A stretch of 64,000 bases of DNA, taken from assembly GCA_902826615.1 (NCBI GenBank), contig CADEFN010000001.1, forward strand, positions 310,001-374,000, in the 5' to 3' direction. The translations under genes and the position numbers were made by a program. Source of the DNA: an uncultured Gemmatimonadota bacterium. Its GTDB lineage: Bacteria > Gemmatimonadota > Gemmatimonadetes > Gemmatimonadales > Gemmatimonadaceae. Below the pieces are notes generated by a model. That model was given only the letters and a program-made list of their open reading frames with translations, ran no database searches and was not told the DNA's origin. Shown here piece after piece: positions 4,432 through 57,166 of this stretch; the first letter of the stretch is position 1; each line of letters opens with the position of its first letter.

Positions 4432-5449
4432 ATGAGTGCATCTGCCGCCACCGCGGGACCCTACGTCCCCACCCCCTGGCTTCGAAACCGGCACCTCCAC
4501 ACGGTATGGGGTCGGCTCATGCGGCGAGCCCCGGAACTTCCATATAGGCGGGAGCGATGGGAAACCCCCGACGAAGACTTCGTCGACTTGCTGCGCCTCG
4601 ACGGGGCGTCGCCAGCACACCCCACGTTTCTCCTCCTCCACGGTTTGGAGGGCTCCAAACGTTCGCATTACATCGGGGGCACCCTGGCCCATGCGCAGAC
4701 CCGCGGCTGGCAGGCCAATCTTCTCTTTTTTCGCGGCTGCAGCGGGGAGATGAACCGGCAGAGCCGCTCCTACCACAGCGGAGAGACGTCGGACCTTGAT
4801 TGGGTCGTACGGCGTCTGCGTGCCGAGCGTCCGGACGCTCCCGTCGTGCTCGCCGGCGTTTCGTTAGGCGGGAATGTGCTGCTCAAGTGGCTGGGTGAGC
4901 AGGGAGAGGCCATTGCACCCTTTTGTCGCCGCAGCGACGGCCATCTCGGTGCCGTTCGACCTTGCGCGGTCCTCGCGACACATCGACTCGCACGCCACGT
5001 TTTACAGCCGACGCTTCTTGCGCACATTGCGGGCGAAGGCCATCGAGAAGGTGACCCGCTTTCCGGGACTCGCCGACAGCGGTGCCATCGCACGTGCCGA
5101 CAGTTTGTGGGCCTTTGACGACGCCTTCACGAGTGTCGCGCACGGATTCGCCGACGCGGCCGACTATTACCGGCGATCGAGCTCCATGCACTACCTGAGC
5201 GGCATCCGAGTGCCGACCCTCATGCTCAGCGCGGCAGACGACCCCTTTCATCCGCCCGAAATCCTCGATGAAGTGCGCGGCATCGCCGCCCGAAATCCCG
5301 CCCTCGTTCCCGAGTTTGTCGACGTGGGCGGGCACGTGGGTTTTGTGGAAGGGGCGCTGCCATGGCGCACAGGCTCCTATTCGGAACGCCGTCCAGTCGA
5401 GTTCGGTGTGCAACGGATGGCCTTGTCGCGGTCGCCGGGTACGCGATAG
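4432..5449 (+). pseudogene. YheT-type alpha/beta hydrolase, interrupted by a single-base frameshift
   Basis: The first frame (4432 to about 4920) gives the N-terminal half: PTFLLLHGLEGSKRSHY, FRGCSGEMNRQSRSYHSGE, and the nucleophile elbow GVSLGGN. It then runs into nonsense. The +1 frame from about 4915 continues with the expected AAATAISVPFDLA, the acid region LMLSAADDPFHPP and the catalytic-His region GGHVGF, ending at 5449. Removing one base from the run GCACCCTTTTG (about 4915-4925) restores one continuous YheT/EMBL-type hydrolase of about 338 residues. All three catalytic regions are intact, so this is either a very recent mutation, a sequencing or assembly error, or frameshifting in translation. 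Nucleophile-region Leu is a TTA inside CGTTAGGC (4863-4869). Confidence 0.8.
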
Positions 5450-53755: not shown

Positions 53756-54763
53756 GTGCGAATCACGGTCTTGTTAGGCGGAACCTCATCGGAGCGCGAC
53801 GTGTCACTGGCCTCGGGGCTGCGAATGGCCGATGCCCTGCGATCGCGTGGCCACGACGTGACCGCCATCGACACGGCGTACGGCCCGCTGAGTGCGGCAG
53901 AGGAGCAGGCCATGCTCGCCGGCTCGATTATGCGGACGGTGCCCCCCGATGTGCAGGCTTTGGTGAGGCTCGAGCGCTCCATGCCCGAGAAACTCGGCGC
54001 GATCCCGGCGTCGGATGTCGTGCTGCTGGCGCTGCATGGCGGCCGTGGGGAAGACGGGACCATTCAGGCGATGCTCGACCTTGCTGGCGCGGTGTACACG
54101 GGCAGCGGTCACCTGGCGAGCGCCCTGGCCATGGACAAGGACCTCTCGAAGCACCTCTTCCGTGCGGCGGGAGTGCCCACGCCAGACTGGCGCATGGCGC
54201 CGGTCGATAAGAACGATGTAATGGTCAACCTGCGGTACCCGTGCATCGTGAAGCCCTCGAAACAGGGGTCGACCGTTGGGTTGTCCCTGGTGCGGGCTTC
54301 TGACGAACTGCAACCGGCGATCGACCTGGCGGGTCAGTACGATGACGAGGTCATGGTGGAGCAGTTCATCGCGGGTCGAGAGCTAACCGTTGCGATTCTC
54401 GGTGATGAGCCGTTACCGGTTGGTGAAATCATCCCCAAGCACGAGCTGTACGACTATGAGTGCAAGTACACACCGGGGATGGCACGCGAGGTGTTTCCAG
54501 CTGAGCTCGCTCCAGAGGAAACGCGCCGAGTGCAGGAACTGGCGCTGAAGGCCTTTCGGGCGCTCAAGCTCGAGGGATGCGCCCGGATCGACTTCAGAAT
54601 GAGCGCCGACGGGGAGTTTTATTGCCTTGAGGCCAATACTCTTCCGGGAATGACGCAGTTGAGCCTGGTGCCGCAGGCCGCGGCGGCGGCGGGCATCTCG
54701 TTTCCGGAGCTGTGCGAGCGTATTGTGACGCTGGCAACGCAATCACGAGGATCAGGAGTTTGA
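53756..54763 (+). CDS. ddl: D-alanine--D-alanine ligase
   Basis: 335 residues from GTG 53756. LLGGTSSERDVSLASG at the N-terminus, ALHGGRGEDGTIQAMLDL, CIVKPSKQGSTVGLSLV, EQFIAGRELTVAILG and the metal-binding EANTLPGMTQLSLVP are all DdlB features. Joins two D-Ala for peptidoglycan precursor. The serine/Tyr-type subclass relevant to vancomycin was not judged. Leu in LLGGT is TTA within TTGTTAGGC. The next gene starts three bases after the stop. Confidence 0.96.
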   Translation: MRITVLLGGTSSERDVSLASGLRMADALRSRGHDVTAIDTAYGPLSAAEEQAMLAGSIMRTVPPDVQALVRLERSMPEKLGAIPASDVVLLALHGGRGEDGTIQAMLDLAGAVYTGSGHLASALAMDKDLSKHLFRAAGVPTPDWRMAPVDKNDVMVNLRYPCIVKPSKQGSTVGLSLVRASDELQPAIDLAGQYDDEVMVEQFIAGRELTVAILGDEPLPVGEIIPKHELYDYECKYTPGMAREVFPAELAPEETRRVQELALKAFRALKLEGCARIDFRMSADGEFYCLEANTLPGMTQLSLVPQAAAAAGISFPELCERIVTLATQSRGSGV

Positions 54764-54765
54764 CG

Positions 54766-55425
54766 ATGGGGACAACACCACCGCTCACAGCCGCGCTCGC
54801 TGGCGTGCCCATGGGCATTCAGCGACAAGGGGTGTGGGCGGGTCGCCGCCAGCTCTTTATACGGTTTGCCGGACCGGCGGAAACGGCGACCATGTACAGC
54901 GCAGACGCGCTGGCGCGGGAGCTCGTCCGAGGGCTCGAGCGCTCGGTGGTCCACTCGCTGTGTATTGCCGGGCGGGATGCCCTCGCCAACAGCGAATACC
55001 TGCTGGCGGCGCTCAAACAGGTGGCGGGCAAGGCGCCGGTGATGGCCGATACTGATGGACAGCGTCCCGAATCCATCGCCGTTTTGCATCCGTACCTGCA
55101 GATGGTGCAGGTCACGGTTGATCCCCCGGCGAGCACCTCGGGGATGGAGCGCGTAAAGGAGACGTTGATGGCAGCCGCGCGAGTGGGGTTGGCGCACTCG
55201 CTGGTGGTGGCGGGCACGGACGAAACCAGTGACGCCGATTATTTGCAGATCGTCGAGCTGGCGCGGGGAGCGAGCCCGAAGGTGGAGGTGGTCCTGCATC
55301 CCGGACCGGCAGCGGAAAAGGGACTGCTTGAACGCCGATGGAGTGTCTTGCTGGAGCATGCGATGGCGCGTCACCCGGATGTTCGCCTGGTGAATCGGCT
55401 CGCGGGTCCGGCGACCGTTCGATAG
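54766..55425 (+). CDS. QueE-like protein without iron-sulfur cysteines
   Basis: 219 residues from ATG 54766. GIQRQGVWAGRRQLFIRFAG (17-36) is the shape of the QueE (7-carboxy-7-deazaguanine synthase) N-terminus, but the CxxxCxxC that should follow is PAETATMYSADAL, with no cysteine. Later segments still track the QueE barrel: a region like TGGEP (AGRDALANSEYLLAAL), then VMADTDGQRPESIAVLHPYLQMVQVTVDPP for the ETNG/SVDIKPP parts. So it looks like a radical-SAM barrel that lost its cluster. queF lies 1.3 kb downstream. Function unknown; a distant TIM-barrel enzyme is the alternative. Confidence 0.6.
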   Translation: MGTTPPLTAALAGVPMGIQRQGVWAGRRQLFIRFAGPAETATMYSADALARELVRGLERSVVHSLCIAGRDALANSEYLLAALKQVAGKAPVMADTDGQRPESIAVLHPYLQMVQVTVDPPASTSGMERVKETLMAAARVGLAHSLVVAGTDETSDADYLQIVELARGASPKVEVVLHPGPAAEKGLLERRWSVLLEHAMARHPDVRLVNRLAGPATVR

Positions 55426-55493: not shown

Positions 55494-56414
55494 ATGGCCC
55501 TTTCCTTCTCTGACGAACTCGAGCCACCGCGCCTGACACGCGCCGTGCAGTGGTTGATCGCCATCAACGTGGCGATCTACTTCCTGCAGCTCACGGTCGT
55601 TGGGGAGCGCAACATGCTGCCGGCGCTCGGCTTCCAGGCCGACGACCTGTCGCACTCGTGGTGGACGATTGTCACCTACATGTTCGTCCACCAGGGGTTC
55701 TGGCATCTCGCGCTGAATCTCTACACGCTCTACATCTTTGGCCCCCGAGTGGAGCACGCGTGGAGCGCGGGTGAGTTTACCAAGTTCTACATCGTCTCCG
55801 GGTTGGGCGGGTGGCTCTTCCACCTGATTTTTGCCCGAGACTCGCTGCTGGTGGGTGCCTCGGCGGCCATTTATGGCGTGACCCTGGCGTACGCGACCAA
55901 CTGGCCCGATGACGAGGTCCTGCTGTTTGGGGTGCTCCCCATCAAGGTGAAGTGGCTTGTCGCGCTCCTGGTGGGCGTCAACCTGATTGGCGGCATGGCG
56001 GCGGCGGGTCCGGGGAGCGGGGTGGCATACCTCGCGCACCTTGGCGGTCTGGCGGCGGCGGCGCTGTATCTGCGCTCGGCGGGCACCGGCGCGAGCCTCG
56101 ACCGGCTGAAGCAGCATGTGTCGTCGATCCCGGATCACCCCGATGAGCCACAACGCGCCGTGCCACGCTCCACGCGTTCGCGCGAGCAGCGCGGTGGGAT
56201 CGACGAAATCGTGGCCCGCAGCAATGCGGCGGTCAGCCGCGCCGAGCAGCAGCAACAGCCCACACCGCCGCCGGTGCGTGCCGACGTGGCCACCCGATCG
56301 GGCGACCTGGACGCAGTGCTCGACAAGATCTCGCAACACGGCATCGACAGTCTCACCTCGGGCGAGCGCCGTCTGCTGGAAGACATGTCGCGGGAGCTGC
56401 GAGACAAGAGCTGA
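55494..56414 (+). CDS. Rhomboid-family intramembrane serine protease
   Basis: 306 residues. Six-helix rhomboid core with FWHLALN (69-75), the nucleophile GASAAIYG (Ser123) and the catalytic His182 in AHLGG. The last 110 residues form a soluble acidic/basic tail with a Gln run (EQQQQP) and a helical end. Cleaves membrane proteins within the bilayer; substrate unknown. Confidence 0.93.
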
Positions 56415-56773
56415 GGCTCGGCGTCGTGCAGTGCGGAGCGCCACAGGCGCACCGCAGGTCTCGGCTCGTTAGGCAGGGTGCATGCCGGCAGATGTCTCAG
56501 GCCGCGCGCCCGCACCGGACACCCGAGCAATCGCCATCCCGAAAAAAAGAGCCCCCCGGAGTTTACCCGGGGGGCAGTGCCGCCACGCCGTTCTCGCGGC
56601 GGCGCACGACCAACGCAAAGCGTCGGTCTGAAAGAGAAGGTACGGCGCGGGTCAGGAGGTGTCCATACCATCCGGCCATCTGCCCTGAGGACGCGGCGTC
56701 GGTGCGGGCGCAACAGGTACTTCCGGGCGAGGGCGAGTTGAACGTCGTGGGGCGAGGCGTCACATTCCGTCCC
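56415..56773. other. Gene-free region between rhomboid and queF
   Basis: 359 bases. It holds one CGTTAGGC (56467-56474) and the strong minus-strand terminator at 56542-56575. A 70-codon minus-strand frame (56563-56775) begins with an ATG that overlaps the queF ATG and ends with its TAA in the terminator loop. It has no Shine-Dalgarno and an unconvincing composition, so I do not call it a gene. No tRNA or riboswitch was recognised. Confidence 0.4.
56542..56575 (-). terminator. Orphan rho-independent terminator, minus strand
   Basis: Perfect 9-bp stem GCCCCCCGG / CCGGGGGGC (56551-56575) with a seven-base loop; on the minus strand it is followed by TCTTTTTTT. No minus-strand gene is known upstream of it for more than 2 kb, so it probably ends an unannotated transcript. 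On the plus strand no T-run follows. Confidence 0.8.
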
Positions 56774-57166
56774 ATGCCAAGACCAGACCTGCTGGAAACC
56801 TTCCCAAATCCTTACCCTGCACGGGACTACGAGATTCACATGACGTGTCCCGAGTTTACGTCGCTCTGTCCCCTTGGAGGGATAGAGACGGACGCCGCCG
56901 AGCTCGAGCTGCTCAAGGGAGGCGCTCCGGACTTCGCGACGATCAACGTGACCTACGTGCCGGACGAGCTCTGCATCGAGCTGAAGAGTCTCAAGCTCTA
57001 CTTCTGGAGCTTCCGGAACGACGGAATTTTCTACGAGCGTGTCGTGAACCGGATCCTCGATGACCTCTCGGAGCGAGTGAAGCCGCGGTGGATGCGAGTG
57101 GAAGGCGACTTCAATGTGCGCGGTGGGATCAAATCGGTGATACGCGCCGAGGTGGGGGGGAGGTAG
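56774..57166 (+). CDS. queF: NADPH-dependent 7-cyano-7-deazaguanine (preQ0) reductase
   Basis: 130 residues from ATG 56774. EFTSLCP with the catalytic Cys32, [23 protein letters not shown] and [19 protein letters not shown] are the QueF signature. Type I (unimodular) length. It makes preQ1 for queuosine. Odd: 14 extra residues (about 36-49, [14 protein letters not shown]) lie between the catalytic Cys and PDFATI, where homologues have only about four. Stand-alone gene. Confidence 0.95.

Follow-up and report, generated by a model that had tools for sequence, protein, structure and literature searches.

Proteins with a radical-SAM barrel are usually identified through their cysteines. Those of QueE, the described protein closest to the one reported here (structures 5tgs/5th5 from B. 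subtilis, 6nhl from E. coli and 4njg from B. multivorans; models TIGR04508 and TIGR03365), are arranged as CxxxCxxC or Cx14CxxC in the loop that bears the cluster, and QueE also carries a SAM-binding GGEPL motif and an ETNGT motif. The same barrel occurs in pyruvate formate-lyase activating enzyme and the NrdG2-type activases. To our knowledge, the nearest known case in which a QueE barrel does other work is the part that E. coli QueE plays in cell division. There the barrel has a task beyond queuosine: E. coli QueE is reported to block septation, and queuosine synthesis is not required for this (PMC11142719).

Here we describe a genuine but unannotated protein from the Gemmatimonadaceae that descends, with the cluster lost, from the branch to which QueE and the activases belong. 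The family is of interest as a case of radical-enzyme repurposing. A conserved and strictly placed example would allow one to ask by what route the fold of a radical enzyme acquires non-radical functions, and it counsels caution against annotation from fold or N-terminal motif alone. In a literature search that covered few subscription journals, none of the matches listed deals with a QueE-like family that lacks the cysteines.

The locus and the family

The gene lies in a window of 64,000 nucleotides, the whole stretch of DNA that was analysed, and the features given below with window coordinates are on its plus strand. The frame runs from an ATG at 54766 to a stop codon at 55425 and encodes 219 amino acids (54766..55425); the assignment as a Cys-less protein with a QueE fold draws on the open reading frame, a predicted model, and structure and profile comparisons. 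AGGAG, a sequence resembling a ribosome-binding site (54754..54758), stands 7 nt upstream of the ATG, and the stop codon of ddl, which encodes D-alanine--D-alanine ligase (53756..54763), precedes the ATG by 2 nt. The next gene on the 3' side specifies a rhomboid-family intramembrane protease (55494..56414) and is followed by queF (preQ1 synthase, QueF-II; 56426..57166), so that the order in the window is mutS (assigned from sequence), an ORF that falls slightly short of the TonB_C model cut-off, ddl, the Cys-less gene, the rhomboid gene and queF. The position in a ddl operon about 1.3 kb from queF, as described in an earlier note on this DNA, is upheld: within the ORF beginning at 56426, residues 120-242 are matched by the QueF model. 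This ORF, the longest for queF, appears to begin more than 100 codons too early; by estimate, queF probably starts near 56770.

On its own the window protein had no match at E≤1 among the Pfam and NCBIfam models, and of the 15 places that Radical_SAM matched in the source genome none is the Cys-less gene. The missing Pfam match says little, because the genuine QueE of the same genome likewise has none at 1e-5. A protein that carries no Pfam or NCBIfam name, from a superfamily recognised by its cysteines, does indicate that annotation can miss cluster-free descendants.

A survey of the same bacterial family found a match in 77 of 179 genomes (46 of the 105 of good quality), one of which, G033, holds only a remnant. 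The Cys-less form seen in the window is therefore a conserved one: 76 proteins were aligned, leaving out the G033 remnant and second fragments in G009 and G124, and all are free of Cys in the loop. The alignment has 19 invariant columns and a mean column identity of 54%. Four relatives lie in Gemmatimonadetes / Gemmatimonadaceae MAGs. Across 395 sampled genomes of the phylum there were 61 with a match, of which only G215 (E 0.01) does not belong to the bacterial family. This match was rejected as chance; it overlaps a 191-aa ORF that, judged by eye from a motif, we take to be shikimate kinase-like.

Fold and ancestry

The earlier note had proposed a QueE-like barrel with a QueE-like N-terminus, and structure prediction bears this out. 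The AlphaFold2 model built from the 76-protein alignment displays a radical-SAM-type barrel (pLDDT 92.3, pTM 0.89), a QueE-type barrel rather than an unrelated fold, and the protein has the length of QueE. Foldseek comparison with the PDB placed B. subtilis QueE first (6.6e-6), followed by NifB and viperin; AroD and other TIM barrels of the non-radical kind appeared from 2.2e-4. VIA-align likewise ranked QueE (5tgs) at the top, with a Z score of 18.2, 199 residues aligned, an rmsd of 2.8 Å and 17% identity; pyruvate formate-lyase activating enzyme (16.2), E. coli QueE (14.9), NifB (14.7) and B. multivorans QueE (14.3) came next, and the best non-radical barrel, homocitrate synthase, reached 11.5.

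Profile comparison with hhalign is consistent with the structural data. The match to QueE (1.3e-8, probability 95.6) spans 83 columns of the N-terminal half and is followed by NrdG2 (1.2e-6, probability 90.8), a set of three B. subtilis-type QueE (6.9e-4) and a PflA-like set (0.0089), compared with 0.026-0.56 for four controls that are not radical-SAM proteins (Ddl, rhomboid, QueF and MutS). The QueE set of the protein's own lineage aligned over 20 columns only (4.5e-4, probability 33). Fold and profile scores for the activases are thus lower than those for QueE, although the order of the QueE and NrdG2 E-values is an unfair contest because the QueE alignment is far deeper (94 rows plus 3, against 6 rows). 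Of 80 viral QueE loci, 63 passed the motif filter.

Searches with the 76 members one by one point to the same superfamily. Pfam Radical_SAM (PF04055) matched 40 members at E≤5 with a best value of 2.9e-7, the next family matching 14 (best 0.0056). Ten members were examined singly; in five of them Radical_SAM matched at E≤0.05, and these matches set in at profile position 25-31, which presumably lies just behind the cysteines. At E≤5 the NrdG2 models matched 11 members (best 0.0047) and the QueE models one each (TIGR04508, best 0.071; TIGR03365, best 0.19), with no NCBIfam QueE model over its cut-off anywhere in the family. A PDB search by sequence profile gave only weak matches to methionine synthase (best 0.047). 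Among viral proteins, the best named fold matches are activases and QueE-like proteins; by sequence, none of 119 pattern matches was confirmed as a homologue, and PHROGs yielded nothing clear, the best being an unnamed family (4/76, 0.0036) and the QueE-like phrog_2076 matching 2/76 (0.34).

The fold, the profile comparison with its controls and the Pfam Radical_SAM matches make descent of the Cys-less family from the radical-SAM superfamily solid, and the fold itself is almost certainly derived from the QueE/activase branch. QueE is the likely nearest ancestor branch, but more of the members, taken one at a time, match NrdG2 models than QueE models. A chance resemblance of the N-terminus to QueE was ruled out by the fold match together with the controlled profile comparison.

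Replaced motifs and proposed function

The loss of the iron-sulfur cysteines, which the earlier note had read from the window protein, holds for the whole family. The window protein contains a single Cys, C66, outside the loop that bears the cluster cysteines in QueE, and the corresponding AG(x)AETATMY loop has no Cys in any of the 76 members, so that the cluster cysteines are absent throughout. Eleven members lack Cys entirely, and the most frequent Cys column of the alignment is occupied by Cys in 27/76. The N-terminus reads GIQRQGVWAGRRQLFIRFAG-PAETATMY, where the QueE of the source genome has TLQGEGAQSGRPAVFCRFSGC...CxxC. The full signature, IQRQGVWAGRRQLFIRF-AGPAETATMY, occupies codons 18-44 (54817..54897). 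Its frame Q-x2-G...G-R...F-x-R-F-A/S-G is shared with QueE and its second half replaces the QueE cluster loop; G22, W24, G26, R28, Q29, F34, A35, A38, E39, T40 and A41 are invariant. Within the replacement loop, E/P-A-E39-T40-A41-T-M-Y44, the four residues A38 to A41 therefore never vary, and a helix begins directly behind it at residue 46, as judged from the model and the alignment. The C-terminal end is GLR-like, as it is in the source genome's own QueE.

Two further QueE motifs have counterparts at their aligned places. The profile alignment puts GRDAL (codons 69-73, 54970..54984) at the site of the SAM-binding GGEPL and DTDGQRP (codons 95-101, 55048..55068) at that of ETNGT. Across the family the first reads G69-R70-D71-(P)-L, with P at the fourth position in 54/76; a GGEP-type motif does not occur at this place, which holds GRD in 72 members, GGD in 4 and GGE in none. 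The second reads D95-x-D97-G98-Q-R100-P101, and VMxDTDGQRPE of the family aligns with LDTNGTRPE of NrdG2, an activase that differs, as QueE does, in having the cluster. PMC11142719 names Q13, E15 and R27 as substrate residues of E. coli QueE. By alignment, the place of the Q (Q19) is kept in 74/76 members and that of the R (R33) in 71/76, with K in the other 5, while the E is replaced (Q in 45/76, L in 12/76, and others). All of these motif correspondences come from alignment rather than from structure coordinates.

Our preferred reading, held with moderate confidence, is that the protein is a non-radical, predicted ligand-binding descendant of the QueE/activase branch that is made together with Ddl. 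The small partial barrel of this branch would have been retained, while the Fe-S loop would have been swapped for the AETATMY loop with its constant AETA, GGEP for GRD(P) and ETNGT for DTDGQRP. Without a cluster, reductive cleavage of SAM should be impossible, so the protein would not be a CDG synthase; radical-SAM chemistry is very probably lacking. The old QueE pocket would now hold another small molecule. Binding of such a ligand is somewhat favoured by the family-specific substitutions at the places of the QueE cofactor and substrate motifs. Made with Ddl, the protein would then serve as a cytoplasmic ligand-binding partner, a sensor or a non-redox enzyme of the Ddl or envelope step.

It is doubtful, though conceivable, that the protein is an outright non-radical enzyme, as the earlier note also considered, whose old barrel has gained a new reaction, perhaps a metal- or phosphate-dependent one that uses E39, D71, D95, D97, R100 and H178. 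The conservation of these residues speaks for such a role (E39, D71 and D97 invariant, D95 in 69/76, R100 and H178 each in 75/76), and two of the motifs that contain them stand where QueE has GGEP and ETNGT. However, conserved residues show no significant enrichment at the pocket side, where the barrel strands have their C-terminal ends, whether near-invariant residues (17/54, p 0.21) or charged and amide residues (8/25, p 0.32) are counted; this also weighs against the ligand pocket of the preferred reading. Moreover, no known active-site motif was recognised, and the members examined singly give only weak Pfam Radical_SAM matches.

Linkage to ddl and deazaguanine synthesis

In all 76 loci ddl lies directly upstream of the Cys-less gene. 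With starts taken as the nearest Met, the two frames overlap by at least 1 nt in 53/76; in about ten rows, where the first codon so chosen is an unusual one, the gaps are approximate. The rhomboid gene was found in 73/76; two of the misses are at contig edges and one locus, L068, is without it. Downstream queF is present in 64/76, several misses reflecting contig ends (65/76 matched at E≤1e-4, from which an unconfirmed match in L073 was dropped). In 20 fetched ddl loci that lack the Cys-less gene, ddl is followed by the rhomboid gene (16), queF (3) or the end of the contig (1), and 19 have no space for the gene before rhomboid or queF. As queF is close to ddl in 17 of these 20 loci, it is a neighbour in the operon regardless of the Cys-less gene. 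Conversely, in two members of genus g5 (G015 and G018) queF adjoins queE and the Cys-less gene remains with ddl. The Cys-less gene thus tracks ddl, and not queF or queE. In the same genus, G016 resembles G015 and G018 in having queF beside queE and outside the ddl-rhomboid operon.

The place beside ddl is nevertheless inherited along with the operon, and the coupling may thus say little about function. That the protein acts with Ddl or with cell-wall precursors is a tentative guess from the linkage. The most specific form of the idea is rather unlikely as it stands: throughout the clade and in step with Ddl, the QueE barrel would have been turned to the cluster-free sensing or enzymatic conversion of a peptidoglycan-precursor metabolite, with the AETA, GRDP and DTDGQRP motifs standing in for the Fe-S/SAM site. 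In genus g32 (for example G138:C1:3000500-3001282) Ddl matches the Ddl of the window only from about residue 80, its N-terminal part being divergent or missing.

The search for a genuine queE at another locus of the source genome found one at G000:C5:123349-123978. It is of the Cx14CxxC type, scores 331 bits against TIGR04508 and lies between queD (PTPS) and queC. With this ordinary queC-queE-queD cluster in the source genome, the Cys-less protein was rejected as a replacement for QueE: it coexists with the true enzyme and, unlike queE, its gene is not with queC or queD. Since the cysteines needed by QueE are lost and a normal QueE coexists, the protein probably does a different job. QueE itself is far commoner, occurring in 164 of 178 genomes of the bacterial family (161 over the model cut-off), and a comparison of match lists shows QueE without the Cys-less gene in roughly half of the genomes of this family.

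Genome G106 (scored 100% complete, in 280 contigs) retains an intact Cys-less frame, with 50 of 54 near-invariant positions kept, while a genome search detected none of QueC, QueE and QueF. In its sister G107 (81% complete), which like G106 belongs to genus g22, the same three enzymes were undetected; the ddl locus was not found there either, so this genome says nothing about the Cys-less gene. Both keep TGT and may salvage queuosine, and a tie of the Cys-less gene to salvaged queuosine is accordingly compatible with G106. The queuosine-precursor transporter PF02592 was found in neither of the two, nor in any other of the 10 genomes searched. Seven other genomes (G029, G094, G109, G145, G135, G017 and G034) contain the gene and gave no QueE match, but they are 61-92% complete and all have QueF (two also QueC), and no inference was drawn from them. 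Genomes with the gene, without it, or with it and no detectable preQ1 pathway provide material for comparison.

These data bear on the proposal of a pseudoenzyme with a regulatory or assisting part in deazaguanine synthesis, which might for example pair with QueE or QueF. The QueE-like fold, the frequent downstream queF and the retention of Q19 and R33 at QueE substrate places speak for it. Against this stand the presence of queF near ddl in most loci without the gene, the separation of queF from the Cys-less gene in G015 and G018, the G106 case, and the many genomes that have QueE alone. The earlier note had suggested a regulator or a chaperone for this pathway; neither idea is supported, as the gene follows ddl, and G106, albeit one genome, speaks against either role toward QueE or QueF. 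The tie to deazaguanine synthesis is weak, the protein is quite probably unnecessary for the pathway, and a deazaguanine pseudoenzyme appears improbable.

A dedicated regulator of division or the envelope that evolved from QueE, in the manner of the moonlighting E. coli enzyme, would fit the unbroken linkage to ddl and has a precedent in the control of division by E. coli QueE independently of catalysis. However, in that study the division role is lost in C31A, in C35A and on deletions in E45-W67, and these cysteines and the E45-W67 insert are missing from the Cys-less sequence and model. The same study states that BsQueE, the best fold match here, does not cause filamentation (PMC11142719). 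Such a regulator is distinctly improbable, and the ligand-binding descendant made with Ddl remains the preferred reading.

Conservation and history

The view that the gene is decaying and functionless draws on its absence or reduction in several genomes of one genus, but is contradicted by the frames of the 76 aligned loci, none of which holds a stop (L064 being cut by a contig end), by the column identity of the family and by dN/dS values of 0.13-0.19, and is extremely improbable. The dN/dS values, obtained against six relatives at dS 0.95-1.55, near saturation, indicate purifying selection.

G022, G030 and G036, of the same genus as G033 with its remnant, lack the gene, which is thus dispensable in that genus. 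In a Ddl tree of 81 rows, whose root is not known, presence of the gene needs 6 changes compared with 17.3 in shuffles, while the starred branches force only 2; the input was Ddl of at least 240 aa, obtained from 61 of the 75 gene-bearing loci and from 19 of the 20 that lack the gene. The tree, the remnant and the absences within one genus make mostly vertical descent with repeated loss likely. No Cys-bearing intermediate was seen between ddl and the next gene in the 20 fetched loci that lack the gene, nothing scoring below a profile E of 1.6 and one of these loci ending behind ddl.

In L165, L166 and L167 (G030, G036 and G022, respectively) the Cys-less gene and the rhomboid gene are both gone between ddl and queF. 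The remnant L091 (G033:C106, frame 4969-5241) joins residues 3-48 to residues 194-219 in one 91-aa frame, which still lies between ddl and the rhomboid gene.
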